A stretch of DNA of 64,000 bases from Quercus robur (Eukaryota; Streptophyta; Magnoliopsida; Fagales; Fagaceae): NCBI RefSeq assembly GCF_932294415.1, contig NC_065535.1, positions 93,016,862 through 93,080,861 on the forward strand, written 5' to 3'. The notes beneath the pieces were generated by a model that saw nothing but the letters and a program-made list of their open reading frames with translations, was not told the DNA's origin and made no database searches. Of this stretch, positions 10,471-34,573 are shown one piece after another. The translations under genes were made by a program, and so were the position numbers. Within the stretch, counting starts at the first letter, position 1. Every line of letters starts with the position of its first letter.

Positions 10471-10700
10471 GATTTTCGTTGCTAAATAACCCTAAAATTC
10501 TAAGTATTTCGTTAGTTGTCCTGTTACGAAACAATTTGTAATAATAGCATCTCGAGTTTCTTAAACTCGAGATCCAATTTAAAAATCGAGCTTTTAAGAC
10601 TCGTTTTTGTTGTTTTTCAGTTGCTGACATGGCGAAAGTTTCCACTTGGATAGCGAGTTTATAAAACTCGATTTTGGAAATCGAGTTTTATAAACTCGCT
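10471..10700. repeat. Left terminal inverted repeat of the large MULE, with CTCGAG hairpins
   Basis: Contains a palindrome near 10549-10572 (CTCGAGTTTCTTAAACTCGAG) and a second cluster near 10650-10700 (GCGAGTTTATAAAACTCG and AATCGAGTTTTATAAACTCG). Its 10511-10590 part matches the minus strand of 34430-34530 at roughly 70%, with the CTCGAG blocks best kept. Confidence 0.65.
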
Positions 10701-10739
10701 TTCGCTTTAACGCTTTTTTCCCTTCCCACTTAAAACAAT

Positions 10740-11006
10740 CTACAGAGACCCGTTCAAAATCTCTCAATCTCAGACACCGCTCTCTCAAACTCTCTCAAAC
10801 TCTCTCAAACTCTTCCCCTCACTGTGGAAATTTCAAAATCAACTCACTCTCTCAAACTCTCTCAAACTCTCTCAAACTCTGTCAAACTCGCCGTGCCGAA
10901 GGTGGTTCTCCCATTGAGACTCAGCCACCGAAACTGAGTTCTGCTCCCATTGACAGTGAGGCACTCAAAGTCAGTACTGCTCCCATTGAACCACCGTGCG
11001 CCTAAG
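10740..11006 (+). promoter_or_regulatory. Probable 5' leader exon of the PMD gene
   Basis: Just inside the left terminal repeat comes a pyrimidine-rich leader with several tandem CTCTCAAACT units. It ends in a good donor, CCTAAG followed by GTACTC at 11007. The PMD coding exon at 15024 is preceded by a TTGCAG acceptor, so the simplest model is a leader exon here and a 4-kb leader intron. This would place the promoter in the terminal repeat, as in MuDR. Inferred; no transcript data. Confidence 0.45.
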
Positions 11007-13034
11007 GTACTCTCTCTTTCTCGAACTCCAATCTTAGGTTTTGGAGTTTCATGATGTTTCCTATTTCGTTTTTCAATTTCGGATCTTTCTGGGTTTTGGT
11101 TGTTCATGTCATTTCAGTGAATGCATGTATATTATTCTGTTTGGTTGTTTGGGAAATTAATGTTAGCAAAACTGATTGAGCATTTGATTGGGTTTCATTA
11201 GTTTAAAAAGTGTTAATATCTGGATTACATTGATATTTAATCTAGTTTGTTGGGGTTTCATTTGATTTGTTTGTGGGTTTTGTTTGATTTGTTTGTGGGT
11301 TTTGTTTGATTTGTTTGTGTATCTTGTTTCATGGTATTTTCACTGATTTGTTTTGGGTTTGTTTTAATTTTCTGATTGTATTTTCGTTTGTGGGTTTGTA
11401 AAGCAAATTATGGGTTTGATGAAATGGTTCTATGAACGGTGTATGAGTTGTGAAGTAATAAGTGAGAATATTCATTTGAAAAAAATGAGAACTTACACCT
11501 GAAAAATAATGGAAGGAAATGGAGTCAACAATACATCTAAGAATTTTTTTTTATTGGGTTAAAAATACTCAAATCAAGCCAAGGAACGAAAGATAAAAAA
11601 ATATTAGTTGAAGAAGAGGATTATACCTGTGTTTGGAGTGTTTGGACCAAGAGCGATTCTGTGTTTTGCATCTCAGGATGAACCGGAACCTATGGATCTT
11701 ATATAACATTGGTCCACAAATCTGTTTTCTGCAATTACATTTTTAATTTTAATTTATATTTACTTATCTGGGGGAAGGGAGGGAAAAAAAGAAGAAGAGG
11801 ACGAGGATTATAAAAAAGTCTTTTTCAATTCTTAACCACCCAAAGGTTAGGAACCTCATGTGTAACTAAACATTAAGAAGTTGATGCATTCGGGTGATTG
11901 TGCAGAGGTAACACTAAGCTGAAATTAGAAGTTAGAAGTTAGAAGTTAGAAGTTAGCTGTCCACACTTACTGCACCACCAACAACATAAAATTTAGAAGT
12001 CAAACACCATCAAAGAAATCTTAAAAAGTGGGAAACAGAGTCACACCTGCAGACTTTTGAAAATAAAGTTTGATAACTACAGATCCAATGCTACAAAAAC
12101 AAAAGCAGAAAGTTATAAATCTTAAATATGTATGATAAGATTGTACAAAAAAATAATAGTAGACAATATAATTAGCCCAATAAACTCAAAGAGATGGTAC
12201 CAGAAGAGAATGTAGAGCTGTTTCAGCTTGATTTCCAAGGAAATACTGCAGAGCCATAGCAGCATGCTCCTGCAATAGGAAAATGCTAAAATAAGTAGGA
12301 AGTTTTAACCACCTGAACTAGGAGATGATTGTCAAGATTTTTCTAACATCATTGTATCTGCAAAGAAAAGAAATAACTGAAATACATTTTCACTGGCCTA
12401 CATAATCACTGAAAACATTTTCTTGATCTATATAAATATTTAAAGTCCATTATGCTCCAACCCTTCATCTGAAACTCTTTATTCCGCCCCCTACTCCACA
12501 TATTTTAAATACAATGCTATAACTCACTACTTCATTCGGGAAAGAATTAAAACTATATTGGACACACACACACACTATAAGTATCTATCAAAATGGGCAT
12601 AGGGGACAAAAACTTGGCAAGATTCAAAAGGTAGGGTAGTCGGATTACCCGTTAAGTAACCAGAGTTGTAAAATGTTACCACTATCCTTTCTTTTTCTCT
12701 TTCTTTGATAAGTATCTCTCTTTTCTTTTCTTGACAAATTAAGAAATTTGTCTAGAACAGAAACGAATTCAGCAAATAGCATGTAATTTCTACATCCTAT
12801 AAAATGATCACATTTGAAAATTTAAAAAAGCAATAAAATCCAAGAAAAAAACACAACAGATTATTGCCTAAAGCATGCAGCCAGTTTTATCATTATCCCT
12901 TCATATATTAGCCAAAAAGGCATAGCCAGATGGGTGGAAATATATTAAGAACTATCTGTCAAACAAAAAATCCATAAATAGAAAATATCATTCTTCTGTA
13001 AGTTTCACTTTCTGGAATTATTTGTGCTAGCCTT

Positions 13035-13078
<44 letters not shown>

Positions 13079-13116
13079 CTAAGGTAGAATTTTCAAAGGT
13101 GGAAAATTAGTCTCAC
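11007..13116. other. Leader-intron interval, mostly featureless
   Basis: AT-rich DNA between the leader exon and the OSCA exon. It holds T-rich stretches, an (AT)n microsatellite at about 13037-13074, and one possible minus-strand orphan exon (12201-12269). A minus-strand segment near 11630-11705 has a TATATAAG-like box followed by a CACAG/GTATAA donor and could be another captured leader. Confidence 0.4.
12201..12269 (-). other. Possible orphan exon, unrecognised
   Basis: Minus-strand 69-bp open exon with a TTGCAG acceptor and a GTACCA donor, reading EHAAMALQYFLGNQAETALH and then SLL. The reading frame, splice borders and balanced composition suggest a captured host exon. I do not recognise the family. 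It lies on the same strand as the OSCA exon 850 bp away but does not continue the OSCA sequence. Confidence 0.35.
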
Positions 13117-13393
13117 CTGTGCTGGGACCGCAACAGCTAGCCTTGCAGGAATATTCTTGGGATCAAGGATGAGGGAAAGCTGATATAAAACTGATCCAGA
13201 AAATACCGTTGCAAAGAAAATGTTCCATATTGTAAACCAAAGGACTTTGTTACATGCACTCTTTTCTATATCACTATGAGAAACATATCCTTGAATAGAT
13301 GAAAGCAACTCCATTATAGGAGGCACTATTTTCAGAAACAACTGAAGAATAAGACTGGGAAGGTATCCTGTAACTACTTCACTAACAAATGTT
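13117..13393 (-). pseudogene. OSCA/CSC1-like channel, single captured exon
   Basis: Minus-strand exon of 277 bp between a GCAG acceptor and a GTGAG donor, open throughout. It reads [18 protein letters not shown], then [20 protein letters not shown], then [19 protein letters not shown], then [16 protein letters not shown]. This is part of the transmembrane (RSN1_7TM) region of plant CSC1-like/OSCA osmosensitive calcium-permeable channels, covering two membrane helices. Both splice sites and the frame are kept. The next expected exon, starting with an SFFI-type helix, was not found. It lies within the proposed leader intron of the PMD gene on the opposite strand. An isolated exon, so a fragment. 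Confidence 0.75.
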
Positions 13394-15023
13394 CTGCCCA
13401 AAAAAAATCATAAAATTAGTACTCTGTCACCAATAGATTAAATAAAACAGGCATTAGATTTTCTCATGAAAACATTATAATAATAACAAATTAGATTCCT
13501 CTTGATTTTTAAGTTGCATATGGGCAATTAATAATATCACCAAATCACCCCAAATATTCAATAAAATATCAGCCAAAACCACTGCAGTTTTCATCCCCCA
13601 TGCCCCATGCCCAATGGTCATTTATTTTGCATGACAAAGATTATGCAATATGATAAGTTGATATATCATTCAATGATAACTAAAACTTAAGACTTGAAAC
13701 TCTCATGCTCTTCAATCTTACCAATCTCATAGCAAGCTAAATAAGTGCAATCTCCTCCTTTAAATAACACATTAGAGATAATAAAATGAAGTTAAGCCTC
13801 TCAAGGACAGACATACAAGGGGGCACCATTTCAATGTTTGTGTACCTGAGCCCCCCAGAACTAATTACACCGACAAAAAATTTCTCCCATCCCCTTGAAA
13901 TTTTCTGTATCAAGACTGCTTCAGTTTGACATAAGATGCTACAGACACCTAAACAAAGTCCCTTTACAGGATGTATAATTTATATAACGAAGCAGCTTTA
14001 CTCAAATTTTCATCAAAGGTGCCTTCTCTCAGTGATTGACCATTAAGCAGAACCAGTAAAGAAGTGTGCATTAAATTTTAGAAAGTGGAATGTAGACCAT
14101 GCAGTTCAGTAAAGAGCCTTCATTTATCAAAATAATATACCCAGCCACTCTATTTAGTGATTCTGAACTCAAATTTAATCTGAATGACAATATTTATTAT
14201 TTAAAAAGTACACAGACTGGGAACTCTGAGTAGATATCCTTAATTAATAAGAGGAAGCATTACATGGGAGAAGTACAATCATACGCCTATGAGGAAGAGT
14301 CCTGTAGAATTAAGAAAGTCATTTACTAATTACATAGAAAGTCCGGCCAACTCTCAAGCTGTCTCTTTACAGCAATAGGGCTTAGATAGGGCCTTCATTG
14401 TTGTTTGGACTACTTTAGTGAACATAAGATCAAGGGGGAATCAAGTAACCAAGTTCCTTTCAGTCAATGGCAAAAGCCAGTAAGCCACGTACAACTAAAG
14501 CTAAAATGTACTACAAAAACCAGATTCTTATTTGTGTGGTGGCAACACCATAGATATGCAAAATTCAACTATTTTAGACGTCTAAATATCCATTTATGGA
14601 CTTCAATCTAGTTATTACAATTCAATAAGGGGAAGAATCATTCTGAACCATTGTTCAACCAATTGATAAGTGGCAGGAAACATGATACTCACACAGTCCA
14701 TATATGTTCAACCAATTGATAAATAAGCATGCTAAAAGTTCATAACCAACACAAAGCAGAATTAATGAAAGTAGTCATTTTATTTGGTACAGAATTCAAT
14801 TTCTTTTAATTGTAAAAGTTTACAAAATTATTCCAACTCCAAAAAATTCATTATGTTTTTTTCTAACTTACCAATTCTAATTTCTTTGATTGCGTAAACA
14901 TCATCGATTTGCATGTTTTTTGGTATGATTGCGAACTTACGTTTTTTGAAGAAAATTCTATTTTACAGTAGCACTCCTTTGCCCCTACACTATTAATGAT
15001 CTCACAGTTGCATTGTTTGCAGT
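13394..15023. other. No gene seen before the PMD gene
   Basis: AT-rich non-coding DNA, taken to be the rest of the PMD leader intron. The minus-strand ORF at 14863-15156 overlaps the PMD first exon and shows no domain. Confidence 0.5.
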
Positions 15024-17981
15024 ATGGAGCCTCGGATTGATGAGGAGTTAGAGGTCTTGGACCCCGGTCCGCGTGAGAGGTCATTGTTGACACGACAGCC
15101 ATATCATCGATCAGAGGCCATTTGGAATGGCGAGGTGAAATTTCTAGTTCTAACAACTGCTTTAATATTTACGTTGTCTTTGATTGTTAGTTAGCAAGTT
15201 CTTTCAATGTTGTATTTCTAGTTCTAACAACCGCTATCATTTTGATCGATTTTGTAGGACTCGGGCCCACTTACGTGCCGTGGTCGCACTAAGGAGATGG
15301 CAAACATTCAGATGCAAGATAATCGAGTCATTGATATTATCAAATTGCTAAGGCTAGAAGGATTGTTTAGAGCCCCTTCAAGAGAGATAGACAATTGCCT
15401 AATATCGGCCCTAGTTGAGCGATGGCGGCCGGAGACTCATTCTTTCCATCTTCCACATGGTGAGATGACAATCACCCTAGAAGATGTGGAGGTAATTTTT
15501 GGACTTCCGATAGACGGTGACGTCTTGGTTGGGCCGACTGCTGTGGTGGATGATGGGGGTTGGAGGCGATTGTGTACGGAGTTGCTGGGTTTTACTCCGC
15601 CGAATGACAATAAAACATTGGTGGGGCAAAGAATTCTCATCAGCCGACTTGTTGAGGCCGTTGCAGCGCCATTGCCTCATGACGCAACGGAGATGCAGAT
15701 ACACCGGTATGCCCGGTGCTATATGTTAGCGCTAATAGGGGACAAACTTTTCATGGACAAGTCAGGAGATAGGGTGCATTTGATGTTCCTGGACTTCATG
15801 CGTAACCTTCGTGATCCGCCACATTATAGTTGGGGTAGTGGTTGCCTGGCCTGGTTATATAGGGAGTTGTGTCGGGCAAGCGAGAAAGGGGCATCGCAGA
15901 TTGGTGGGGCGTGCACCTTGGTCCAGTATTGGGCATGGGCAAGGTTGCCATTCTTGTGCCCGAGGATAGAGCCCCCACCTGGATGTGATTATGGCCCATG
16001 GCCATATGCTCCACTTGCATTTAAGTAAGTCTTTTCTTCATACCAAGTGTCTTCTGCAATGTACATTTTTGTGTAACTAAATTGTATTATTGTTCTTATG
16101 TTTTTTGCTTGCTTGTAATTGTAGGTGGGTGCGGGTGCCAAGCTCGAAGAGTAGACCATCCGGCATGGCCTTGGTCCACTATCGCGAGCTATTAGTTACA
16201 ATGCAACCAGAGCAGGTAATAATATTCAAAAAATTTGTTTGGTTATGATCATTTTCGTTAATAATATGATTGCTTCATCCTTTAACATATCTTTTGTTAT
16301 AATTTTAGTTTTTTTACCCTTTATATATGTATTTTCCCTTGTTTCATATTTGAAGATGCTATGATAATTGTTTTTTTTTTTTCTATCGTAGATTGTGTGG
16401 CAGCCATACGAGGCACACTTCAGCCACCTTCCTGAGTTCTGCGTTGCAGGGAGGGATATGTGGACAGCAAGGGTGCCGCTTCTGTGTTTTTGCATAGTAG
16501 AGAGACACCACCCAGACCGTGTCCTTCGACAGTTTGGCTTGGCGCAGGAGCGGCCTGACCATGTTGTCTACGATGATAGGCTGCATAAAATCGACTTACG
16601 TGGGAAGGTGGAAAGGAATTGGAGGGAGGAGCATGGACCGTATATCATTTCTTGGGAAATGAGACGACAACAAGTTTGTCGTGCACCTCCTCAGATTGGT
16701 GAGATGCCCCGCAATCATGCCTATTACGTCTGGTACCGTCCGGTCACTCGAAAGTATGTCGACCGCAACAGCGCTAAATTAGATATTATGGTAATGTGTT
16801 CTACTTACATTTGATTGCCTACTTCGTTTTACTTGAGTACATGTATGAACATAAAATCAATTTCTATGAATTTCTCAGCAAATCTGGTTTGCTTTGACTG
16901 ACATGTAATGAAATAGTTTTTGATACATATAGTATTCTAATAGAACTGTTAGTTTTGAGTAGATTCATAAGTCTTATATTATTCATTCATTAATTGATAC
17001 ATAAATGATGTTGGTTCTTTCTCCGTTTCAGATTCAAAGCCATTTAGCGCTGTTGGCGATGCTTCCTGAAGGCAGCCAAGCTCACAACCATGTCCGGCGT
17101 ATCCTAAATAATGTGGCTGGCCTTGGTGGTGGTCCTGCAGTAAATGAGCATGCAAACAATGGGGATGAGACTGAACTAGCAGCTGCTGCAACCCCAAGCA
17201 CAAGTGCAGCACCCGTAAGTACACCGACCCGTGGTCATCGTGCTACTACAAGCCCAAGCACAAGCGCAGCTAGGGGTCGTCTTCGGCCTGCTACAGCAAC
17301 CCCAAGCACAAGTGCAGTTAGGGGCCGTGGTCGGCGTGCAACAACCCCTCGGGTTGTAACTACTCTTGAGATGCCTCCACCCATCCCGCAAGCATCTCCT
17401 CAGCATGAGATCCCTTCACCCATCCCATATGCATCTCCTCAGCCCGAGGTCCCTTCACCCAGCCCACCTTCGCAGCCCAATTTCGATGTCAGTATTGACC
17501 AAAATGTGACCCCTCCTATACTCCCCGAGACACCCTCATACCCACACACTGGCTCTAGTGCACCCACTCCTGGCCTCTACATAGAGCAGGATTACCCACC
17601 TACCACATCCTCATCTGACCCTCTAGGATCTCCGGTTGGGATTGACACTGTAGAGCCACATATTGATGTACCGGACCTTAATCCCCCTCATCAGGCCTCA
17701 CCCCCACGAGGTAGACCGCAACACAGTAGAAGAGCACCCACGTGTGGGACAGGTGGACACAAAATAGGACACCGAGGCCCCGCTATGGTATGATAACTTT
17801 AATTTGAATGTAATAATATATTTTCTACTTCACTTTACTCTTACCATTATGGAGAATATTGATTGCATGCATGTAATGGAATTTGCAGCACGATGATGAC
17901 CCTAAGGTTGATGCCCCGCAGCCTCCTCCCCCACACAAACATTACACGAGGGCTAAAAAACACAAAATTGGTGAACCTTGA
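15024..17981 (+). CDS. Plant mobile domain (PMD) protein, PP7-long-form/MAIN-like, intact
   Basis: Six exons splice cleanly: 15024-15134, 15258-16024, 16125-16215, 16392-16790, 17032-17787 and 17889-17981, giving 738 aa. The N-terminus is MEPRIDEELEVLDPGPRERS. The aminotransferase-like plant mobile domain follows, about residues 45-400: IIKLLRLEGLFRAP, FHLPHGEMTITLEDV, VIFGLPIDGD, LVQYWAWARLP. A Pro/Ser/Thr-rich tail has ATPSTSA repeats and RGRG patches and ends in a basic KHYTRAKKHKIGEP. The start is the ATG one base after a TTGCAG acceptor. Families of this type are often annotated as serine/threonine phosphatase 7 long-form homologues, though no phosphatase domain is present. In Arabidopsis, PMD proteins (MAIN, MAIL1) act in transposon silencing, and PMDs also occur inside MULE and Gypsy elements. 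Here it faces a MuDR transposase within one candidate element, so a transposon-borne accessory role is likely. Confidence 0.88.
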
Positions 17982-18382
17982 GTAAGTGCCTTGAAAATTA
18001 TGTTTCATACTTTACATATTAGAAACTTTAGGATTTTAATTGACTTTCAATACATTACCATTGTAGTAAATGTTATTTTCCCTCATTTGATGATGTATGC
18101 AAATTTCTATTTATGTGTTATTCCAGGGTGGAAGTTACATTTTTGAGTTTGAAAATTTCTTAGATCTTCAAGTTTGTCGAGAGTTTGTGGGTAAGTCTCA
18201 ACTATTATGCACATTACTTATTTCAAGCTTGTTGACCTATAATTATGTGTTGTCAATCTAGTTCAAAGGTTTAGACATTCTATTAGGTCAGTGTAGTTGA
18301 TATGGATCTTCCCCTTTGTAAATGTATGAAGCAGAATAGACATTCTGTTTGGTAGTGGTCCACCTCTTGAGTTTGTAGTTTA

Positions 18383-21194
18383 AGGCATCTTCATTGAGTG
18401 ATATTACTGAACTTGTGGAAGACAGAATTGGGCAATTGGAGAGCAGGAGGATTAGTAAGAGAGCGGAGAATAAATCCTGGGCTGCTTCTATGAAGCCATT
18501 GGAGTTCGCTGAGGAGCTTGAGAAGAAGCATGCTTCTACTGGTTTGCATTGGGAAGAGGGTGCAGCTGCTCAGCCAATGAGGCTTGAGGGCGTACGGAGA
18601 GGATCAACCACATTAGGATACTTTGATCTTGATGCGGATATGCCCTTATTCAGATATGCCCTTAGTATATGGTTATCCGTTAAGATACCATTGATTGGTA
18701 ATATCTAAATTTCTTCTGTTACAGAAATCGAACATGTTAAGTGAGGAATTTGGCTTTTTATGGTAATTTCAGTATGCAAACATCTGGATGCTTAATTAAA
18801 TTGTGAAGCTTCTAAGTACATTTGCTTTTGCTATGAGCCACGTTGTAGTTACGACAGAAATAACTTTACTCAATAAACCATGCTGTTTATGTTCCAGATG
18901 TCGATGCTCGGTCTGCAAGGGGATAGGTCTCATGCCCCTGTAACTTCCATGCGCTTCAATCAGCAAGGGGACCTGCTCTTAGCTGGTTATGGTGATGGTC
19001 ATATAACTGTTTGGGATGTGCAGAGATCATCATCAGCAAAAGTTATTACTGGAGAGCATACAGCACCAGTTTTTCCCAGTTATTTCTGGGGCAGGATTCT
19101 CAGGTTACTCGTCAATTTAAAGCAGTTACTGGTGATAGTAAGGGTCTCGTTCTGTTGCATGCTTTCTCAGTTGTTCCCTTGCTCAATAGGTTCTCCATCA
19201 AAACCTAGGTAAAACGTTAGTATGCATCAATATGTGATTTATGATTGTGGCACTATGTATAATATGCTTGTGAGTTGACATCATCTCCAAACTAATGATC
19301 ATATTGTTACTTGAAATAGTGTCTTCTTGATGGACAAAAAACGGGAATTGTGCTATCAGCTTCACCGGTCCTTTTTGATGAATTCTCTGGAGGTGCTTCC
19401 CTGTCCTCTCAGGGAAACAATGCAGTTTCATCCAGCAGTCTTGGTAGTATGATGGGAGGTGTAGTAGGTGGAGATGCTGGCTGGAAACTCTTTAATGAAG
19501 GCTCTTCTTTAGCTGAAGAAGGTGTGGTCATATTTGTCACCCATCAAACTGCTCTGGTGGTATGAAGCCCTCAAATGATTGCACAAATTCCATGTACCTT
19601 TTGTCTTGTGAATTGATGTTGTTCTTCTTAGTGGTTATATCTTGTTCAAAATGTGTTAAAGCCACATTTGCATTTCATCTTTCTAAGATATGAATTTGTT
19701 ACAGAAAACGTACCTGTAGAAGCATCAGAGAGAGTCTACTTGCTCGCAATTGCTTGGGACCGAAAAGTTCAGGTTGCAAAGTTAATCAAATCAGAGCTAA
19801 AAGTATATGGGAAATGGTCTCTTGACAGTGCAGCTATAGGTGTGGCTTGGTTGGATGATCAGGTACGTATTTAGTTATTCATATATTGTTGATTTGTCTT
19901 TTGTTGTATTTAAATAGTGTTATTTAGGTTGGGTGCCTAGTAAATAATTGTAAATGCTTTGCATGTAATGAGATTTTTGTACTTGACCAGATACTGGTTG
20001 TTCTTACATCAACTGGACAACTCTGTCTGTTTGCTAAGGATGGAACTATGATTCACCAAACAAGTTTTTCTCTGGATGGTTATGGTGGAGATGATCTTGT
20101 TGCATACCATACCCACTTTATTAATATCTATGGAAATCCTGAGAAAGCTTTTCACAATTGCATAGCTGTAAGAGGAGCTTCAGTATACATCCTTGGTCCT
20201 ATGCATCTTGCTGTTTCTCGCCTTCTCCCATGGAAGGAACAGATTCAGGTTCTGTGGAAAGCGGGTGATTGGATGGGTGCACTGAACATGTCAATGACAC
20301 TTTATGATGGCCAGGCGCATGGTGTTATTGACCTTCCTAGAACCTTGGATGCTGTACAGGAGGCCATAATGCCCTACCTTGTGGAGTTGCTTTTGTCATA
20401 TGTAGATGAAGTATTTTCTTATATTTTGGTGGCATTTTGCAACCAAGTTGAGAAAATGGAACCACTGGACAACCCAAATAGTAGAAGCAGTTCTGTGCAC
20501 TCTGAAATAAAAGAGCAATACACTTGTGTTGGTGGAGTTGCTGTGGAATTCTGTGTTCATATCAAGAGGACTGACATCCTTTTTGATGAAATTTTCTCCA
20601 AGTTTGTGGCGGTACAACAGAGAGGTATCATTACATCTCTGAGTCTTCTTGTGTTGAATGCTTCAATTACTACGCAGTTTGATCTTTGATGTCCAGGTTG
20701 AAGTTCATTTTTTAAGTGAAACTTGGTAACTCAATTTGTGATAGCCGTAACTACATAACATGAGGCTAGAAAGTTTAACAAACTTTGAAGGTCAGACTGT
20801 TTGCTTAGAGAGCTTTCCTTGTGATGAAGTTTTTCTAATGCTATACTCTATTTTACCTTCGCCTTTTAAGATTGGGTTTGTTACTAGGAAGGGTGCAAGT
20901 GTTATTCAGCTCTCCTAGCACCTTGAGAGTGATGTATTCTGTGTTGACACTTTGCTAGTGCAAAATTAGGTTGAGTTAGTGTCTGCTGTGGTCTAATTGC
21001 TTGTGAAGTAAGAGCAATATATATATATATATATATAGCAGCCCTTCACTTGCGATAATTTTTCCATATTAGCAGTCCTTAGACATTACTCTTTCGGTGA
21101 TTTACCTTTTGTTTCATTACATTTTTCAGACACATTTTTTGAGCTTTTGGAACCATATATATTGAAGGACATGCTTGGATCACTGCCTCCTGAG
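18383..21194 (+). pseudogene. VPS8 (CORVET subunit) gene fragment, intron-containing
   Basis: Pieces of the vacuolar sorting protein VPS8, an endosomal CORVET tethering subunit. Approximate exons: 18383-18640 (ITELVEDRIGQLESRR, EFAEELEKKHASTGLHWEEG, TTLGYFDLDAD), 18898-19209 (MLGLQGDRSHAPVTSM, AGYGDGHITVWDVQRSS; WD40), 19320-19559, 19705-19862 (LLAIAWDRKVQVAKLI), 19991-20624 (MIHQTSFSLDGYGGDDLVAY, RLLPWKEQIQVLWKAGDWMG) and 21130-21194 (ELLEPYILKDMLGSLPPE). Damage: one frameshift in the second piece after EHTAPV, with the family sequence resuming in another frame; a TAG in place of the expected CAG at that exon's end; loss of the exons after DLDAD and after TALVV; no N- or C-terminus. Kept introns show DNA-level copying. 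It follows the PMD gene on the same strand by 400 bp. Non-functional as VPS8. Confidence 0.85.
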
Positions 21195-24059: not shown

Positions 24060-24270
24060 TTTTTTCCTTTCAAGATATGCCCAGTAAAATCATGGAGAAA
24101 ATTGCTTGTAAATAATAGGCAAAATTTTAGGAATAAAAATACCGGGTAAAAACGTTTTTCTTTCCTCTTCTGTTTAAAGTTATAATTATAAAATCATATC
24201 CAAAAATGGCTTCTAAATAATAGGCAAACTTTTAGGAATAAAATTACCTAAACATGGGTTTTAAATTTTT
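24060..24270. repeat. Imperfect tandem duplication
   Basis: Two related units of roughly 120 bp each contain AAATAATAGGCAAA, TTTTAGGAATAAAA and TACC, near 24105-24150 and 24205-24255. AT-rich and non-coding. A short GGTCCTTTATGGGCTAGACT-type duplication follows at 24737-24795. Confidence 0.5.
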
Positions 24271-24811
24271 TTTTTTTTTTGCTTGAAATTGTAAAAAAAT
24301 TATCAACGCAACGTTCAAGGATCACAATTGATTAACTGAAACAATAAAAGTAATGCATTTATTTTTCACCAAAACTCTATTGGATATTGTTATCCTTAAA
24401 CATAGCAATTTATCCTTAACAATATTGCACAACTCCAAAATCCTGAATCTCAACCGTGGAACATAATAACGAATGTTAAAAAATAAATGTAAAACACAAA
24501 GATAATTTAGGATTCTAAAATCCTAAAACATTTTATTTATTTATTTTACTTGTAAATAATGGGAAACTGTGCTGGTTAGTACGCCATTTTTATTGAGAAT
24601 CTGAAATCCTAAAATTTATTCCATACTTATTGCATTATTATGTAATAACTAAATTATTTTGATTTTTCTTATTGCATGGAAGACCTATTGCATAAATTTG
24701 TTTTAAACTTTATTCCTTTAACTTCCCAAATGCAGGTCCTTTATGGGCTAGACTCTGTAGGTCTGTTATGGGCTGGACTATGAAGGTCCTTTAAATTTTA
24801 TGATTGTTTTC

Positions 24812-25146
24812 CTGGTCGATGCATGTTCTGGCGCTCATGCATACGGTGCTGAAGCAAATGCATCTTCTGCATCGAATGTTGACGAGCTTCATCAAGAAAT
24901 CTCAGTTCGTTCAGCAGTAGTCATAATTCCATTGATTATTGTGTGGACACACACACATATTCCTTGGAGTATTTTCAAGAAAATCCAAAGAGGATGTACA
25001 AGAGAAGAAGATGTTGCTGGAAAAGCTACAAGTCAAAATGAATGAAGTAGAAGCAAAGGCCAACAAGCTTAAAGTGTCATTGGAGAATCTATGTGGTATA
25101 CTAACAAGGTTTTTACGAACTATATTTTGTTTTTATTATAAATAAA
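24812..25146 (+). repeat. Left arm of a 335-bp inverted repeat, exon-like
   Basis: Starts at CCTGGTCGATGCATG and runs to TTTGTTTTTATTATAAAT. The inverted partner is at about 26478-26810, roughly 93% identical by eye. Both arms code for the same peptide: VDACSGAHAYGAEANASS, then EISVRSAVVIIPLIIVW (one membrane-like helix), then in the next frame SKEDVQEKKMLLEKLQ and EAKANKLKVSLENLCG (coiled coil). The parent protein is not recognised. A host exon set seems to have been captured and duplicated into a hairpin. Confidence 0.7.
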
Positions 25147-25147
25147 T

Positions 25148-25920
25148 GTGAACAAGTTGAGATCTGCTGGGTGTAGAGTGAAAATATGGATTGTAGATTG
25201 GTTTGCCCAGCTAACCAATAAGATGGGAGGTCAGTTGAGGAAAATTGATGTTGTTGGGCGCTACCTCATTCAGATTTGGAAGGCCGTTGGGATGGATACT
25301 GATGGAGGGAAGGTGGAGTTTCTGCGGTCGTGGAACGATAAACCGAATCAAGCTCATGAGCACTAGCCTCTTGTGATGGATATGGCACAAAGGAATACGG
25401 TTTCAAGGATAAAAACGTGAATTATGGTATGATGATTATTATTATTACTTTAATATGCTGGTCATGTAGTCGTTATTTTTACTTCTATTATATTTTGCTG
25501 CAGGTGTCGTCACATTATGGGTCGAAGTGATGAGGACGAGTTCACTGCAGCACAAATGTTCTACCCACGCATGCAATGTGCTTATGTGTGGTCTTTATTT
25601 GTTTTGCTTACTCGTAATTGACAAACATGTTACCCAGTTTACAACAAGGTCAGGAGAAGATGTCGAAAAGTGATCCACTATCTTCAACTTTTATGGAAGA
25701 TGACGAGGTAGGGTGCATGTATAGGGGTATCAAATTGCCATATAGGGGGCTACATACTGTTTTCTTTATTAGTTGCGCATAGCATAATGATACTGAAATC
25801 AACACCTAAATTCCTTAACTCTGTGCTCTACCATCTTTGTTCTGTCTATTTGTAGCGTGTAAGAGAACAGTTCAAGCATGACAATAATGCAAAAGATCTT
25901 TTGAAAAGGGTTAAGGTATG
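25148..25920 (+). pseudogene. Cytosolic tyrosyl-tRNA synthetase gene fragment
   Basis: Pieces of eukaryotic/plant-type tyrosine-tRNA ligase in order on the plus strand: 25153-25430 (LRSAGCRVKIWIVDWFAQLT, then GRYLIQIWKAVGMD and LVMDMAQRNTVSRI), 25504-25590 (CRHIMGRSDEDEFTAAQMFY then PRMQCA), 25642-25709 (LQQGQEKMSKSDPLSSTFME, with the KMSKS ATP-binding signature) and 25857-25917 (VREQFKHDNNAKDLLKRVK, the C-terminal region). GT/AG-like borders and introns remain. The HIGH-motif N-terminus and the exons between the KMSKS piece and the C-terminal piece are missing, and frames do not connect. It lies in the loop of the 335-bp inverted repeat. Non-functional as a synthetase. Confidence 0.8.
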
Positions 25921-25954
25921 GTTGATTGGCTTTTAAAATTAATTTCTTTTAATA

Positions 25955-26110
25955 ATGCGTTTTGAAAATGGTAAGAGTGAGAATTAGCAGTTGCACTACT
26001 GGTCAAGCCTTGTTGCAATGACAAGTGCCTTTCACCAAAAGAGGTTGTGGGTTCAACCTTAACCACTGAAAAACCCCACAAATATAACTAAGTTTTGTGC
26101 ACTTAGTACT
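25955..26110 (+). mobile_element. SINE-like sequence
   Basis: Contains a tRNA-like B box (GTGGGTTCAACCTTAACC) about 40 bp downstream of an A box-like string (TAGCAGTTGCACTACTGG). There is no clear poly-A or target duplication. Tentative. Confidence 0.3.
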
Positions 26111-26477
26111 ACGACGTTGCAGCCAGTTGTATTCCTTCATTGAGAAACATAGTCGTTTTAGGCAAGTATTAGATTCAATGTTTTTTAAAAAAAAACTATT
26201 ATGACATACATATTCAAAATTTCAATTGCATTGGGTTTTGATTAGAATGATTGCGTTATTTGTAGGCACAGATATCACTGTTATATCAAACCTCTGGAAG
26301 CATTGGAAGGTGAAGAGTCCAGGAAAAGAAGGCAGACCGCTTCTTCATCATGCAGGGCTTGTTCAACCTTTATCAGATCATGTTCTACTTTTTCCTACGA
26401 TATATATTTCCCATCGTCTGATTGCGCTCTAACATACCCTTATGGAAGAAAAATGTCTTCAATGATTGGAATAATTT

Positions 26478-26810
26478 ATAATAAAAACAAAATCTGAAAT
26501 GTAAAAACCTTGTCAGTATACCGCATAGATTCTCCAATGACACTTTAAGCTTGTTGGCCTTTGCTTCTGCTTCATTCATTCTGACTTGTAGCTTTTCCAG
26601 CAACATCTTCTTCTCTTGTACCTCCTCTATGTATTTTCTAGAAAATACTCCAAGGAATATGTGTGTGTGTCCACACAATAATCAATGGAATTATGACTAC
26701 TGCTGAACGAACTGAGATTTCTTGATGAAGCTCGTCAACATTCGATGCAGAAGATGCATTTGCTTCAGCACCGTATGCATGAGCGCCAGAACATGCATCG
26801 ACCAGGGAAA
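26478..26810 (-). repeat. Right arm of the 335-bp inverted repeat
   Basis: Inverted partner of 24812-25146, encoding the same helix and coiled-coil peptide on the minus strand (SLVDACSGAHAYGAEANASS; EEVQEKKMLLEKLQVRMNEA). Together the arms could fold into a long RNA hairpin with the 1.3-kb TyrRS-bearing loop. Confidence 0.7.
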
Positions 26811-27411
26811 AATTGATAAAGACAAAAATAATGTAAGTTGGATTTACATTTGATAAAGACATACATAATGAATGATAGATTTTTGTTTTTTGCATTATAT
26901 GGGAAATGTGATAAAATTATTCTGTTTGTGATTTGTATTAGGTACCATCATGACGATTTCAAAGGACCGAGTAAAGCCATCCCCAATGCCTGACAGTTGG
27001 AAGTTAAAAGGGTGGATAACTTTCTTTTCCGTGCCATTTCTTAGTGTGATTGCAAATTTTGTATAGAGCGAACAATGTATTGAGATGTGGATATTTAAGC
27101 CTTGATTGGCAGGAATTTTATGTTTTGTATATAGAGAACTATGTAGTTGATACATTTTTTGGATCAAAACCTTGTGTCTCTATTTGGTTATTTGGAGTTA
27201 AGATCATTTCACTATATTGTGAAAAGCACTCATTTGGTGTTATGGAGTGGAATAGTTTATTCAATGCAATGCATCTATAGGTTACTCATATTTAATAGTT
27301 TATTCAGAAGTTTTTCCCTTAAACAGTTATAAAAAGCTCATTTGTAGAGAAGAACAACAATTGTGACCTTTACAATTTTTAAATACAAAAAATAAACAAA
27401 TTTAAATTTCC

Positions 27412-28108
27412 AGTGGAACTCGAGTCTATGAAACTCGAGTTCCACTGGTGCCTCTCTGCCTAAACAGAGCAAAACGGAGGAAAAAAATTTCCAGTGGAAC
27501 TCGAGTCTATAAAACTCGCGAAACTTCTGGAACTCGAGTTTCATAGACTCGAGTTCCACTGGAAATGTTTTTTTTCCCCCTTGGTTTTGCTCTGTTTACT
27601 CAGAGAGGCCCAATAGGGTGCTCTGTTTTTTCCAGTGGAACTCGAGTTTCATAGACTCGAGTTCCACTGGAAAAAATTTTTCCCTTGGTTTTGCTCTGTT
27701 TACTCAGAGAGGCACAATAGGATGCTCTGTTTTTTCCAGTGGAACTCGAGTTTCATAGACTCGAGTTCCACTGGAAAAAATTTTTCCCTCGGTTTTGCTC
27801 TGTTTACTCAGAGAGGCCCAATAGGATGCTCTGTTTTTTCCAGTGGAACTCGAGTTTCATAGACTCGAGTTTTACTGGAAAAATTTTTGTCTACGTTTTG
27901 CTCTGTTTACTCAGAGAGGTCCAAGAGGCTTGCTCTGTTTTCCTCTGTTTTTCCCAGTGGAACTCGAGTTTTATAGACTCGAGTTCCAGTAGGAAATTTT
28001 TTCTCCTGGTTTTGCTCTGTTTACTCAGAGAGGTCCAAGAGGCTTGCTCTGGTTTCCTCTGTTTTTCCCAGTAGAACTCGAGTTTCAGAGACTCGAGTTC
28101 TATGGAAT
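27412..28108. repeat. Tandem array of CTCGAG palindromes
   Basis: Repeats of a unit of about 104 bp. Each carries a near-perfect 39-nt hairpin with arms CCAGTGGAACTCGAGT and ACTCGAGTTCCACTGG and a 7-nt loop TTCATAG, followed by a TTTTGCTCTGTTTACTCAGA spacer. The clearest units start near 27630, 27734 and 27838; variants lie to both sides. The array lies just beyond the 3' end of the transposase gene. Similar but shorter CTCGAG hairpins are in both terminal repeats of the large MULE. Confidence 0.8.
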
Positions 28109-28736
28109 TTTTTTTTTTTTTTTGTTTTGCTCTGTTTTCCTCTGCTCATTCCAGGAATCATTCACTGGGGAATTTTTTCTTTCATTTTTCCTGGTTATGC
28201 AGACAAACCAGAAACTGAAACGTGTGCAAGCACCAGGTGAGAAGCAAAGATAAACAAACTACGAATATAATCCATAAACCCTCATTTAGAGGCAAAGAAG
28301 CTAAGAATGTAAATACACGTACATTACATCAAACGAAACTACTGAAACTTCTACGCTCTCTGTATAAACATGGTTTTACAATGCAAAATGCAGTTACATC
28401 GCAAGAAAAGGAATTCTCAATATCAACATCCTAAACATGGCCAACCACGCTTAATTTGCAGTTCTAACCATACTATTGAAATCACAATCTTCATAGGCAT
28501 ACATTCAATAGAGATTTACAAGTACATTCAACAAAAACCAAAAAGTTCACATAGACCCAATACAACGTAGTCACTTTTCCTAACATCGGCTGTCCACACA
28601 ACAAAAACATCGTCCTTGGAAGCATGCCTGAAAAACGTAGAGTAATCACATTAGGGGAAAAGATAGTAAACATTAGGTCAACATAGAATGAACAACAAAT
28701 ATTTAACCGATGTATAAGTATTTGCCATCTACCTAC

Positions 28737-31526
28737 CTAGTGTGGAACATGACCGCTTGTGGAAGCGCCACGGGACTGCGGACATTTTCTGCGGTTATGC
28801 CCGGAAGCATGACACAGTCCACATGTCTGCTTGGACTGACTCTCTATCAAATCTGCATCCTCCCTCCGCCATCCCGGTTCTCGAACCTTATTCCTCACTC
28901 CATCCATCTCATTCCTTATTCTCGACTTCACTGGTCGACCTTTGGCCCGCAACAATGCTGGATTAGGCAACCACTTTGGCCCTATGGGATCCCTCCACAA
29001 AGCCATCGACTTAGGAACCACAAATGCATGCTCATAAGTGTTAATGGCATTGTTCAAACCATAACACGGGTGAATAAATGTGGTCGAATCAATATTTAAA
29101 TAGTCACATACTCTGATTGCATGTGAACACGGGATCCCTATGTTTTGCCATTTCCCACAACTGCATGTTCTTTCCTGTAACCGAACTTCATAACTGTGGT
29201 TTCCCCCTCCTGCACTACACGTGTTGATTTGGGTAACTATTTGAAATATCAGCTCTTCATTGCTAAATGGCTTGAGATAATGTTTCTCAGATTTGCTCTT
29301 ATTCTCATCCCACTTGGAGAAGGCATATTTACTCCATTTCTTACCCTCTGAGAACTCAAAAAGGTATTCTTTGCGACGGTCGTGGAAATAACTGACAAGT
29401 TTGTTCCAAGTGAACTCAACCAACGCGGCAATAGGAAGGCCCCGTGCACCTTTCAATACACCATTGAAGCACTCTGATATATTGGTTGTCATTGCCCCAA
29501 AACGTCTCCCACCATCATGTGACTGGGTCCACATATCCACTGACTCGCCCATTAGGTATGTGTATGGAAGATAATCTTGATTCTTTTCCTTGCCATCCTT
29601 CCCCGTCAACTTCTTCTTATTTCTAATGGCCTCAATTTCCGCCTGCTTAATGGTCTCCATTATGGAGGTAAATTTCACTGCCTGACTAGCATATCCAGCT
29701 TTCAATGCCGCTGACTTCAGAGTCGAGTTCTGAAAATGTGTGTTAAAGTTGCTAGCAACATGTCGAAGGCAATATCTATGAAATACCAGTGCTCTTCCAT
29801 CATCCCTTCTAGGCCAGTTTGCAATGGCGTTTTTGATACCGAGATGTCGGTCAGAAATTATGCAAATGCCTTCGTTAGGTATCACGCGGCCAATCGCATC
29901 TCTGAGACATTGTAAAAACCACCTCCAACTAGACCCTGACTCAGAATCCACAATAGCAAAGGCAAGAGGGAATACCTTGTTGTTAGCGTCGGTTGCCATT
30001 GCAACCAACAACTTTCCCTGATATTTACCATACAGATGAGTCCCATCAATACTGATAACCGGCTTGCAATATTTGAATCCATCAATGCTTGGACCGAAAG
30101 ACCAAAACACATAATTCAAAAATACTGTGTCATCTTCACCGGTGGATGTGGTACGATAGAACACCTGGGTAGTCGGATCCTGATCAATATATGCCATTAG
30201 CAACTTTTGCAACCTTTGATAAGACTCTTCCCAATTCCCAAACATCTTCTCAATCGCCTTTTGTTTCGCATCCCACACCTTGTAGTAAGAAGGCTTTTGT
30301 CCCTCATATTTCGACTCTATCATAGATCTGAGATGCTTAATTGGGGTAGTGTGATCCTCACATAACTTCTTAAGGATGTCATCTGCAATAAATTTACAAC
30401 TCATCATTCTACCATCATTTCGCACCCCAGTCCGTATACACGTGTGAGGACCCTTGTACACGGTGACTATCCATAGATTGTGGAACTTGGGCTTCTTGAC
30501 TACGCATACATACCACGTGCATGACTCATCAACGCATTTCGCACAAAGTTTTGTCGTGGTTGACCTACTGATCAAAAAATGTTTGTTTTCCTTGAGGGCA
30601 CACTTTGTTAATACGCGTTGCACCTCCATTTTATTGGCAAAAGTCAAGCCTTTGCACAAATTCATCCCCTCAATCCAACTAGACACAAATGGTGTCTCAA
30701 TATGTGAAGGATCAACAAAATTTTCCCAAGTATTTTCATAAAATGACAAGGCAGGTGGTGAGTACACAGGGATTGTGTCCGTAATGTTTTGGACACTAAG
30801 AACATTGTATGCATCAGGTTGACTACCGTCCAATGTCTCATCGTCATCAATGTCCCTCTCAAAGTCCCTAAAGTCCCCTTGTTCAATCCTGTCTTCAATC
30901 TCATCTCTATCGCCAAAATCTTCACCATTAATGGCAATATTTTCATCAACATAGTCATCATCATCATCCTGATCCTCGTCCTCATCATCATAATCATCAT
31001 CATTCTCATCCTCATCCTCATCCTCATGATCATCATCATCATCATCGGCATGAACATCTTCATCGGCATGAACATCAGCATGCTCTACATGTGTAAAATA
31101 CTGGTATTGAGCATCTGGAACTGTAACTTGTAAACTTGTTTGTGTTTGTTGGATTTCCTCAATACCAACTTCTGCACGTGGCTCCAACTGTATGTACAAC
31201 TCAATGTTAGTTACTTCAGGTATTCTCTCCAACTTGTCAAACATGATCTTGACATGTTTGTCTGATTCTATCGCCATGTACTTGTAATTAATCCGGTGCT
31301 TCAGGATTTCATTTGGCATGCGATAAGTAATGTGTATGTTGTGCACAGCAGGGTTCTCACACAACTCTTCCATAACCATCATCTTCAATTGATCAAGGGT
31401 CTTCAACCTACGATCAATTTGGGTATAATAGGTCTTTATACCCGGCCCTTCAAATGGCAATCCCTTGTTCGCATTGGCATTCTTCAACGGACCACCGTGG
31501 TATATGATTATATCAATTTCAGGCAT
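28737..31526 (-). CDS. MuDR-type MULE transposase, full length
   Basis: One uninterrupted 929-codon ORF. The N-terminal 120 residues are PB1-like. An acidic Asp/Glu tract covers about 154-195. Next comes a MuDR-type/WRKY-GCM1-like zinc finger (C328, C331, C336 with H361, C363). The DDE core has D494 in SIDGTHLYG, D559 in IISDRHLGI and E685 in TTNISECFNGV. A SWIM zinc finger follows (C788, C790, C800, H802), and a C-terminal CCHC knuckle (C902, C905, H910, C915). All catalytic and zinc residues are present and no frame break is seen, so the protein could be active. An acceptor CTGTAACAG lies 7 bp before the ATG, implying a leader intron that reaches 33934 near the right terminal repeat. It runs convergently toward the PMD gene, as mudrA does toward mudrB. 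High confidence in family; activity is inference. Confidence 0.93.
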   Translation of the reverse strand: MPEIDIIIYHGGPLKNANANKGLPFEGPGIKTYYTQIDRRLKTLDQLKMMVMEELCENPAVHNIHITYRMPNEILKHRINYKYMAIESDKHVKIMFDKLERIPEVTNIELYIQLEPRAEVGIEEIQQTQTSLQVTVPDAQYQYFTHVEHADVHADEDVHADDDDDDHEDEDEDENDDDYDDEDEDQDDDDDYVDENIAINGEDFGDRDEIEDRIEQGDFRDFERDIDDDETLDGSQPDAYNVLSVQNITDTIPVYSPPALSFYENTWENFVDPSHIETPFVSSWIEGMNLCKGLTFANKMEVQRVLTKCALKENKHFLISRSTTTKLCAKCVDESCTWYVCVVKKPKFHNLWIVTVYKGPHTCIRTGVRNDGRMMSCKFIADDILKKLCEDHTTPIKHLRSMIESKYEGQKPSYYKVWDAKQKAIEKMFGNWEESYQRLQKLLMAYIDQDPTTQVFYRTTSTGEDDTVFLNYVFWSFGPSIDGFKYCKPVISIDGTHLYGKYQGKLLVAMATDANNKVFPLAFAIVDSESGSSWRWFLQCLRDAIGRVIPNEGICIISDRHLGIKNAIANWPRRDDGRALVFHRYCLRHVASNFNTHFQNSTLKSAALKAGYASQAVKFTSIMETIKQAEIEAIRNKKKLTGKDGKEKNQDYLPYTYLMGESVDMWTQSHDGGRRFGAMTTNISECFNGVLKGARGLPIAALVEFTWNKLVSYFHDRRKEYLFEFSEGKKWSKYAFSKWDENKSKSEKHYLKPFSNEELIFQIVTQINTCSAGGGNHSYEVRLQERTCSCGKWQNIGIPCSHAIRVCDYLNIDSTTFIHPCYGLNNAINTYEHAFVVPKSMALWRDPIGPKWLPNPALLRAKGRPVKSRIRNEMDGVRNKVREPGWRREDADLIESQSKQTCGLCHASGHNRRKCPQSRGASTSGHVPH

Positions 31527-32499
31527 TGTGAACCTGTTACAGTCAAGTTACTATGTTAGTTAACAAATCCATCTATCCTTCCTATATACAAGAGGCTAAT
31601 TACAGCAACATGGTATGAGAGGTAAACACATGTAAAGCAAAAGATAATTGCAAACGCAATTTTTTTTAACACATACAAAATTGCAAAACATAATGGGGGA
31701 CTAAATAATTGCAAAAGATATATCATTGTAACACAAACACAGCCACATGGATGTAGTTTCCAGTGTCATGTAATACTTGCATTTTTTTCCCTTTACATTC
31801 TATGAGGAGCTGTAACATTTTCTTTGATCTTTTAAGATTCTCAATCATAATTTTATTACCTGTTACTAACTTATCATAATCGAGGGCTGTTACATTGGAA
31901 GGCTTGGTTTATCTTCATTTTTTCATGAGAATAATTTTCTTCTTCTTTATCATTATAGATGAGAGAAGACTGGCGCTTATCCTCTCTAGGTTACTATTAC
32001 AGGCTTAAAAGGTTAGAAAAAGGTTCCCTAAGCAATTGTTTTTAGAGAATAGCACAAATACTCAAGTGCCAGATGAACCCTTCTGTGTCACAGGCTCAAG
32101 GACACATCCAAGAATTCAATTTAGGGAAATTGTGGAAAGATGTGTTTCATCTCTCAATAAATTGATCAAGAGGGCAGACTGTATCTTTTCACCCACAGTT
32201 TGTACCATAGTGATGCAGCCTGAATAAGGCAGCAAATATGACGTGTTTGCTGTAAACAGCAGATAAAGGCTATAAGGCAGAAAAGGGAGTCAGTAACCCC
32301 AGAAATAAGATTAATTTTCTGTCAAAAATAGCCAGTTTTCTTCAGATTATTACTTATTTATAAGAGAAGCAATGCCTGACTAGTCAAAGACACATAATAA
32401 ATGCTAGACAGCTGACAATACATTTAGAGATTGGAGCATCAAGTGGAATTATGCTGATGTAGGATACAAGAGTCATAGATAAACTTGAAGAGGCAGTAA

Positions 32500-33290
32500 G
32501 TGATTTTTCAGTTTATTCTTGATTTCAAAATGTGGTTGATGGTTTTGAATGGACTTTTTTTGGAGTGTATGATCCTAATGCAGATGCAAATAGATAGCAG
32601 CTTTGGGAAGAATGGGCAAGGGTATATAGTTGGTTGGTGCATAGGGGAGGCTTTCAACATAATTCCTTTTCCAAGCAAAAGGATGAGCTTTAAGAACAAT
32701 GGTAAGGATGTGGCATTTTTCTGGAGTTTATTTCAGAACATAGCCTAATGGACTTACCATTGGAGGAAGGTGTTTAAACTTGGTCAAACGATCATGGTCA
32801 CCCATCAATGCCCAGGTTGGACAAATGTTTGATCTCACTAGCTTTGGAAGAACAATTTCACTATTTGAATCAGAGATTTCTTCAAAGATCATATTCAAAC
32901 TGTTTTCCCATGTTACTTGATGGTAATGATATCAACAAGGGCAAGGGCTTATTTACATTTGAAAATATGCGGTTAAGAACTGAGGGCTTTGTGGATAAAG
33001 TGAGAAATTGGTGGGGGAGTTATCACTACCATGGGTCTCTTAGTTATATATTGGCTTCGAAACTCAACTCCTTGGAAGACAATATGAGAAATAGGAGTAA
33101 GGAGACTTTTGGAGATGTGACAGTATGGAAGAAACATTTATTGGTGCTAAATGAATGGAGGAAGAGGGATGCCTGATTGTTGAAGTTTCTTTTATTCCAA
33201 AAAATATCGGGGCTTCAGATGCTAAAGATTATAGGCCGATCAGCCTTATTGGTGGCGTCTATAAGATTGTGGCTAAAGTGCTAACTACAT
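32500..33290 (+). mobile_element. L1-type LINE fragment (endonuclease end into RT start)
   Basis: Plus-strand pieces in several frames match plant L1 ORF2: GWCIGEAFNIIPFPSKRMS (endonuclease GDFN region), then a PRLDKCLISLALEEQFHYLN stretch, FPMLLDGNDI and KVRNWWGSYHYHGSLSYILA, then ASDAKDYRPISLIGGVYKIV (start of the reverse transcriptase). The piece is internally deleted between the RNWW block and the RT start, with frame changes and no intact domain. It lies in the proposed transposase leader intron. Confidence 0.75.
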
Positions 33291-33354
33291 CAATTACCTT
33301 AAATACCTTAAATAAATGCCTACATCAATTACCTTAAATAAATTAAATGGTTTA

Positions 33355-33690
33355 AATTATTTAGTTTGGACACACGCTATGATTTGAAGCAACATAAGCG
33401 ATATTGAGAGGAATATATGATTACTACATTACTGTCTGCCTTAGATTCTGATCTACATGGTTTTAAAGAGCAGATTCTTTCTAGTGAAACCCTCACTTCA
33501 GCTGCCAATGTTAATTCTCATTATTGTGCTCATGCTTAGGCCAAGGTTCTATTGAGACAACCATAGTCTTTTGCTTTAGTTTCTAGCATTGGAGGTTGTA
33601 ATAGCTTCTAGTGGTAATGGTTGTAATGGTGGATGTGGTGACAACAAGTGCTCATTTGGTGGTATGAATTGTACTAAACGTTATTGTTGG
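33355..33690 (+). mobile_element. Retroelement gag-like fragment (copia-type, fossil)
   Basis: A short, broken remnant resembling the gag region of Ty1/copia-like retrotransposons (LLSALDSDLHGFKEQILSSE and a Gly/Cys-rich CSFGGMNC patch). Several breaks; no LTRs recognised at its edges. Family assignment is from these two patches only. Confidence 0.45.
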
Positions 33691-33934
33691 GTGAATTAGT
33701 AATAAATCAAAGAAAATATAACAAATAATATATAGCTCAAATGACATGCAAGCCAATAAAAACAATGGAATTGAAATCAACAACAAAAAGATACTACAAG
33801 AAGAACATCTTATATTAGGAAAAAACATGGAGTCATTGGAAAACCCATAAAGTCATTGGGAAGTTCTCTTAGTGGCAAAACCCATACACAACTAATACCC
33901 AACTACAATAACAATCAAATCAAAAAACCCATAC

Positions 33935-34095
33935 CTGAAATATGAAATTCTTGAGAGGGAAGAGCAGTGAGAGAGGCAATGTGGTGAGTGAGAGTGAGAG
34001 GTGTGAGAGTTAGTGAGGCTAAGTGTATGGGTGAGAGTTGAGGATGCTTTGTTTTTGGGTGAGAGTTTGAAGATACTGAGTGTGGACTGAATAAT
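33935..34095 (-). promoter_or_regulatory. Probable 5' leader exon of the transposase gene
   Basis: Minus-strand pyrimidine-rich leader (repeated CTCACTCT/CTCTCAC) just inside the right terminal repeat. It ends in TTTCAG with a GTATGG donor. Its style matches the CT-rich leader beside the left terminal repeat. Inferred. Confidence 0.4.
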
Positions 34096-34159
34096 CTATT
34101 CCCAGGAAATACCTTTCAAAACTACTGTTATCTGTTTTTGACTGTGGACGGAATAGAGT

Positions 34160-34573
34160 TGTAAAATAGTTCCACCAGAACTCGAGTCTTATAGACTCGA
34201 GTTCTGTTCAAAGTTAACTACATTGTTTGGATAAGTAGATCTCGAGTCTTATAGACTCGGTTTGCGCCACGAAAAACTCGAGTCTATAAGACTCGAGATC
34301 CCTTGAAATTATTACTATTCTTATAATTAAATCTCGAGTCTTATAGACTCGGTTTGTGCCAAGCAAAACTCGAGTCTTTAAGACTCGAGATCCGCGTGGC
34401 AACTTTTGCCACCTCAGCAGTGCAGAACTAATGGAAAGCGAGTTTATGAGACTCGGTTTTTAAGTTGAATCTCGAGTTTCAAAAACTCGAGATGTTAGTT
34501 TTCTAAATTGTTTGAAAACGTGCCTAACTAACTAATTTGAATGGTTGAACGAATCTGATTTGCACAATACCTC
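34160..34573. repeat. Right terminal inverted repeat of the large MULE, with CTCGAG hairpins
   Basis: At least five palindromic CTCGAG units are present, for example GAACTCGAGTCTTATAGACT followed by CGAGTTC near 34173, ATCTCGAGTCTTATAGACTC near 34233, and CTCGAGTTTCAAAAACTCGAG at 34471-34491. The outer part, read on the minus strand, matches the left end (GTTAGTT, CAAACAATTT, AACATCTCGAGTTT). Confidence 0.65.

Follow-up and report, generated by a model that had tools for sequence, protein, structure and literature searches.

In maize MuDR, two genes are read inward from the terminal repeats. They are named as the open reading frames (ORFs) mudrA and mudrB by Dupeyron et al. (2019, PMC6446971), whose Table 1 also reports PMD, in antisense orientation, in most members of the MUDR group of Mutator-like elements (MULEs). 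According to the same table, PMD is carried by most MUDRAVI2 members, often antisense, and by most members of MDR and MULE-Monocots, sometimes antisense, and half of the VANDAL members carry PMD and/or DUF. The main text of that paper leaves PMD unexpanded, and it is read here as plant mobile domain. This source also gives target duplications of 8-11 bp for MULEs. In some MULE groups, terminal inverted repeats are missing. The convergent layout of a PMD gene and a transposase gene is already documented for plant MULEs, and the element examined here, element B of a 64-kb stretch of DNA (the window), is a further example.

The first description of PMD concerned a rice MULE, according to Ikeda et al. 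(2017, PMC5418596), who also reported PMD-MULE transposase fusions in several grasses and in Amborella, suggested an anti-silencing function and inferred that the PMDs of MULEs were captured from host genes. In Arabidopsis, PMD proteins aid the silencing of transposons (PMC5418596, PMC7156037). Nicolau et al. (2020, PMC7156037) described MAIN/MAIL1-PP7L and found mainly genic PMD-C in eudicots. The counter-silencing idea for MULE PMDs was restated in a 2021 review (PMC8616336), and a review on gene capture from 2026 (PMC13317346) has neither PMD nor "mobile domain" nor MAIL1 in its main text. In tea, phased small interfering RNAs are reported to derive from PMD genes and from transposase genes (PMC10673657). 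In VANDAL elements, the short motifs to which VANC proteins bind lie in tandem repeats of noncoding DNA (PMC5735166, PMC10398659). Lastly, Pack-MULEs are described as MULEs that have lost their transposase (PMC6446971).

The main parts of element B are given below; positions are those of the window (overall GC 35.6%), and "dyad" designates the motif CTCGAGT-N7-ACTCGAG.

10471-34573: element B, very probably a Mutator-like element, 24,103 bp
10462-10470: left 9-bp target duplication TAAAAAGCC, sharing 5 bases (the first five) with the duplication of the neighbouring element A
34574-34582: right 9-bp target duplication TAAAAAGCC
10471-10710 (+): left terminal inverted repeat, with homology from 10475, one dyad (at most 2 mismatches) and decayed dyads
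34165-34573 (-): right terminal region, with inverted-repeat homology at 34327-34553 and 6 dyads (at most 2 mismatches) in 34181-34491
28737-31526 (-): MULE transposase gene; the product of 929 aa has the domains DBD_Tnp_Mut, MULE and SWIM as well as a CCHC-like knuckle
31534-33934 (-): predicted transposase leader intron, from sequence signals
15024-17981 (+): PMD gene, six predicted exons, 738 aa, ATG at 15024 and TGA ending at 17981
15024-15134, 15258-16024, 16125-16215, 16392-16790, 17032-17787 and 17889-17981 (+): predicted PMD exons
11007-15022 (+): predicted PMD leader intron, GT...AG by eye, positions checked

The two termini of B are adjoined by TAAAAAGCC, identical at 9 of 9 bases, which the + strand of the window (64 kb) contains at these two places only and the - strand at one place. 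The probability of an exact 9-mer pair arising by chance was estimated from 20,000 random position pairs for each slack, pairs lying less than 1 kb apart being counted as no match; it was 0 at slack 0, 0.075% at +/-5, 0.365% at +/-10, 1.35% at +/-20 and 2.9% at +/-30 bases. Since the end homology sets in 4 and 20 bases inward of the proposed termini, a fair value for the 9-bp repeat alone is about 1%.

The ends are inverted copies of each other over about 230 bases (10475-10710 and 34327-34553), with 174 identities among 212 aligned bases or 251 columns. Local alignment of 280 bases from each end gave a score of 126, whereas the best of 500 first-order Markov simulations reached 38, and blastn aligned 150 columns at 75% identity (E 1.2e-18). 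Only two of 1,981 random inverted window pairs outscored the ends of B (295 and 214), and their sources are the inverted repeats at 50.8/52.6 kb and 24.8/26.8 kb. After masking of the CTCGAG-type motifs, the score of the ends was 79, versus 41 for the best of just under 2,000 random pairs. A chance 9-mer as the source of the TAAAAAGCC pair was rejected on the repeat (about 1% alone, at a 20-base slack) and the end homology taken jointly. The preliminary description of this DNA had proposed one MULE of about 24 kb bounded at 10471-34573, flanked as a whole by a 9-bp repeat, and had suggested aligning its left end with the reverse-complemented right end. That alignment, scoring far above shuffles, and the exact repeat, restricted to the outer ends on the + strand, bear the proposal out.

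Directly to the left of B lies another MULE-type element, A (5016-10457), whose inverted ends of about 445 bp are identical in 415 of 448 columns and whose 9-bp duplication, CACTTAAAA, is found at 5007-5015 and 10458-10466. Its right duplication and the left duplication of B overlap by 5 bases. This overlap, together with the fact that A stops 4 bases before the duplication of B is complete and the chance of about 1% for the 9-bp repeat alone, could suggest that the boundaries are coincidental, the left one belonging to A, and that the PMD gene is simply a gene of the host. However, A possesses matched ends and a 9-bp duplication of its own, and the ends of B match each other far above controls; this explanation appears extremely unlikely. 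When A is taken away, the TAAAAAGCC of B stays whole, and either order of insertion is compatible with the present sequence. A left boundary of B owed only to A was rejected on these grounds, namely the own ends and duplication of A and the integrity of TAAAAAGCC without it. Within A, one piece presumably derives from a tomosyn/LLGL-type gene, which it resembles, and the ORF 5421-5786 has no match in Pfam.

The transposase ORF contains no internal stop. Its product matches the Pfam domains PF10551 (MULE, 5.5e-17), PF03108 (DBD_Tnp_Mut, 7.5e-8) and SWIM (1.9e-7). The residues D494, D559 and E685, located by motif position, are taken here to be the catalytic DDE triad. The C-terminal CCHC knuckle corresponds to a Pfam knuckle match below the cut-off (E 0.065). 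The leader intron of this gene presumably contains LINE-type and Copia-type debris, and the ORF 32808-33176 located within it has no Pfam match. Comparison of the transposase with solved structures gave no match up to E 0.1, and none of its 7 pattern matches in viral contigs or 346 pattern matches in contigs of prokaryote genomes was confirmed as a relative.

The splice model of the PMD gene is a prediction from sequence signals: all five predicted introns are GT-AG and the frame is open through the six predicted exons. The product of 738 aa matches PF10536 (PMD) with E 2.1e-77, from position 7 to position 347 of a profile of 347, and this is the sole Pfam match of the second gene up to E 0.1. 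In exon 5 (17170-17444), in-frame repeats of 48 bp and 39 bp encode a Ser/Thr/Pro-rich tail. Only three weak rows were obtained against solved structures (best E 0.28), and the fold of the exon-2 ORF (243 aa), predicted without alignment, had a mean predicted local distance difference test (pLDDT) value of 40 and was left unused. A search for relatives in viral contigs with the first 446 residues as query yielded one pattern match, which was not confirmed. For both genes, sequence signals predict a CT-rich leader exon beside the corresponding end of B and a long leader intron before the start codon.

An intact MuDR-type transposase gene (-) and an intact six-exon PMD gene (+), converging inward, had also been announced in the preliminary description. 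Both were recovered, the first as an open frame of 929 aa with its three domains, the second as a predicted protein of 738 aa with GT-AG introns and a strong PF10536 match, and the predicted leaders of the two convergent genes begin just inside the terminal repeats. A transposase with a DDE-type MULE domain, a 9-bp duplication and terminal inverted repeats, by which the MULE superfamily is recognized, are all present in B. From these features, B is very probably a single transposase-encoding Mutator-like element with a PMD gene antisense to the transposase, and there is little doubt about its anatomy as described.

Like maize MuDR, B has two convergent genes directed inward, but its second gene is a PMD gene and its ends are less alike. 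Maize MuDR is several times shorter than B. The earlier statement that PMD takes the place of mudrB holds insofar as the PMD gene occupies the position of mudrB, and its wording is best kept to position; judged by its Pfam domain and not by a direct comparison with mudrB, the second gene of B is not a mudrB. With its 9-bp duplication, its transposase with a SWIM domain and its antisense PMD gene, B is like the groups MUDR (50) and MUDRAVI2 (49), whose inverted repeats are tabulated as 30-320 bp and 80-290 bp respectively, against about 230 in B (PMC6446971). It is unlike them in its 24 kb, its three host-gene fragments and its central dyad array, and the likeness is one of layout. The MULEs of Ikeda et al. 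also combine a MULE with PMD, as a fusion protein, whereas in B the PMD gene is separate and convergent (PMC5418596). B and the VANDAL elements with VANC are both MULEs that have an accessory gene and, in noncoding DNA, short motifs arranged in tandem, although the motif differs (PMC5735166, PMC10398659); Pfam, the only comparison made on this point, did not report a VANC-type domain for either gene of B. What stood of the earlier interpretation is therefore one bounded element with two convergent genes. Its newness did not, the layout being tabulated in PMC6446971 and anti-silencing having been proposed in PMC5418596. Conversely, the host-gene fragments, the dyads of both ends and of the central array and the adjoining MULE with its overlapping duplication had gone unmentioned.

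Inside B, 27 of the 34 CTCGAG sites of the window are grouped in three clusters: the left end has 2 sites, the right end 10, and the remaining 15 lie at 27.4-28.1 kb. The ends had previously been described as CTCGAG-rich; the cluster of 15 sites is an addition. It corresponds to the following feature:

27388-28137: central array of CTCGAG-bearing repeats, with 8 dyads (at most 2 mismatches)

Eighteen dyads with at most 2 mismatches occur in the window, 15 of them in B (1 at the left end, 6 at the right end and, between these, 8 in the central array). With at most 3 mismatches and spacings of 5-9, the window contains 31 dyads, whereas five simulated sequences contain 2, 4, 4, 1 and 8. When the spacing was varied from 0 to 20 (at most 2 mismatches), 18 dyads were found at N7, 11 at N3, 9 at N18 and 0-3 at the others. 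The central array holds 10 of the 11 N3 and all 9 N18 matches, which we take to be products of longer palindromic units in this array.

The three remaining dyads are located in an inverted-repeat element of 454 bp (46909-47362), which scores 72 against the central array of B and 35-40 against its ends; in the control, limited to the left end of B, the maximum was 35 in 200, so that the scores with the ends barely exceed background. This element is perhaps a short relative of B.

The presence of a cluster of dyads of the same type between the two genes could be explained by a merger of two elements, a left one bearing the PMD gene and a right one bearing the transposase gene, the central array being an old terminus. 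However, once the dyads are masked, the ends score 69 with each other and only 20-32 with the array, while the 95th percentiles of random windows are 34 and 40 (these were used in preference to the highest scores among the 200 windows, 454 and 70, which presumably come from windows overlapping the ends). Moreover, TAAAAAGCC is found at the outer ends only. A merger of this kind is thus quite improbable. We rejected an old terminus as the origin of the central array, since its masked scores with the ends stay below the 95th percentiles of random windows and TAAAAAGCC is absent there; according to the masked alignments, the array copies neither end, and it is read as a motif array.

MULE transposases bind terminal repeats. 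Binding of the transposase is also the plainest guess for the dyads at the ends of B. It is rather likely that all dyads, including those of the central array, are transposase sites or remnants of repeat expansion that are unrelated to PMD, as their presence in both terminal repeats would suggest. None of the results obtained contradicts this reading, although an array distant from the ends is not needed for cleavage of these ends.

Besides its two genes, B carries pieces of host genes:

13093-13401 (-): fragment of a HYP1/CSC1-type channel gene, inside the predicted PMD leader intron (Pfam RSN1_7TM 4.6e-25; HYP1 chain 2.2e-35)
18394-21200 (+): broken, intron-retaining fragment of the host gene VPS8, downstream of the PMD gene, presumed outer limits, set by eye
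24797-26820: fold-back with 347-bp arms (24797-25143 and 26474-26820, 95%) enclosing a tyrosyl-tRNA synthetase fragment

The identity of the VPS8 fragment is confirmed by Pfam for the ORF 18880-19212 only (Beta-prop_VPS8, 4.6e-9). We assume that the ORFs 18394-18708 and 20048-20689 belong to the same fragment; neither has a Pfam match, and 20048-20689 matches nothing in the PDB either. For the tyrosyl-tRNA synthetase fragment, the confirmed stretch is 25178-25360 (+), at 2e-22. The fold-back was considered as a nested MULE and rejected, no direct repeat of at least 8 bases being found within 40 bases of its ends. Rfam gave no match in the window at gathering scores. Given these captured pieces and its own transposase, B appears as a transposase-encoding MULE that also behaves like Pack-MULEs, with which it shares host-gene pieces and from which it differs by having a transposase.

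The PMD gene could itself be a passenger, a host gene that the MULE picked up as it did the pieces of HYP1, VPS8 and tyrosyl-tRNA synthetase and that plays no role in the element. Other host-gene pieces are demonstrably present in B, and capture from host genes was inferred for the PMDs of MULEs (PMC5418596). Conversely, no stop interrupts the PMD frame across its six predicted exons and its domain is full-length, in contrast to the other pieces, all of them broken or partial, and the recurrence of PMD in several MULE groups (PMC6446971) would be unexpected for a useless passenger. A passenger gene is a serious possibility, though short of an even chance.

The alternative that we favour is that the PMD protein would be an accessory helping the element to escape silencing by the host. 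Each end of B would drive inward transcription into one gene, and the transposase would recognize the ends, the dyads being obvious candidate sites, then excise and reinsert the element. The host-gene pieces would have been acquired through the capture habit of MULEs. As for PMD, it would most likely interfere with the host MAIN/MAIL1-PP7L pathway, two proteins of which share this domain. Such an anti-silencing role of the PMD of B is a real possibility, though short of an even chance, and we propose it tentatively. An unlikely extension is a two-part, VANC-independent anti-silencing system, in which PMD would recognize the dyads, directly or via a partner, and draw MAIN/MAIL1-PP7L off B. If this were true, short relatives would profit as well, through dyads such as those of the 454-bp element (46.9-47.4 kb).

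Several points weigh against B as a well-delimited element with an anti-silencing gene. The outermost 20-30 bases of its ends are poorly matched, and the likeness of the ends is 69% by columns and 82% by aligned bases; given these weak outermost bases, the exact termini depend on the 9-bp repeat, itself expected at about 1% by chance with a 20-base slack. As the dyad consensus was derived from the same sequences, the dyad counts are descriptive, made after the fact, and do not constitute a test. The broken gene pieces and the retroelement-like debris suit an old or slow copy more than one of very recent origin. Should the host be a eudicot, towards which the overall GC of 35.6% and the third-position GC of 0.40 in the PPR gene of the window lean, and should the PMD of B belong to clade C, the mainly genic nature of PMD-C in eudicots (PMC7156037) would be awkward. 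Lastly, in the literature covered, a function of transposon-borne PMD was found to be proposed (PMC5418596, PMC8616336) and not demonstrated.

Elsewhere in the window, a third MULE-type element, C (50787-52649), has ends of about 210 bp at 97% identity and a 9-bp repeat, TTAAATAAA, at 50787-50795 and 52641-52649; it contains an open IRX15/GXM fragment (51553-52062, Pfam 3.4e-60). A small inverted-repeat element (46643-46850) has arms of 46 bp at 93% and a possible 10-bp flanking repeat, ATAAATAAAA. The likely host genes encode a PPR protein (52841-54475, ORF of 544 aa, third-position GC 0.40), a DUF1005 protein (40816-41436) and a class I chitinase (63249-63695).

The structure of B is in itself ordinary for plant MULEs, and what merits bench work is its combination of a dyad array and an open PMD gene. 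Host PMDs contribute to transposon silencing in Arabidopsis and MULEs carry PMD genes; a counteraction by the transposon copies is, in the literature covered, only proposed (PMC5418596, PMC8616336). Well bounded, with both genes open and a motif array that can be counted, B offers a concrete construct on which this question of counter-silencing could be addressed.

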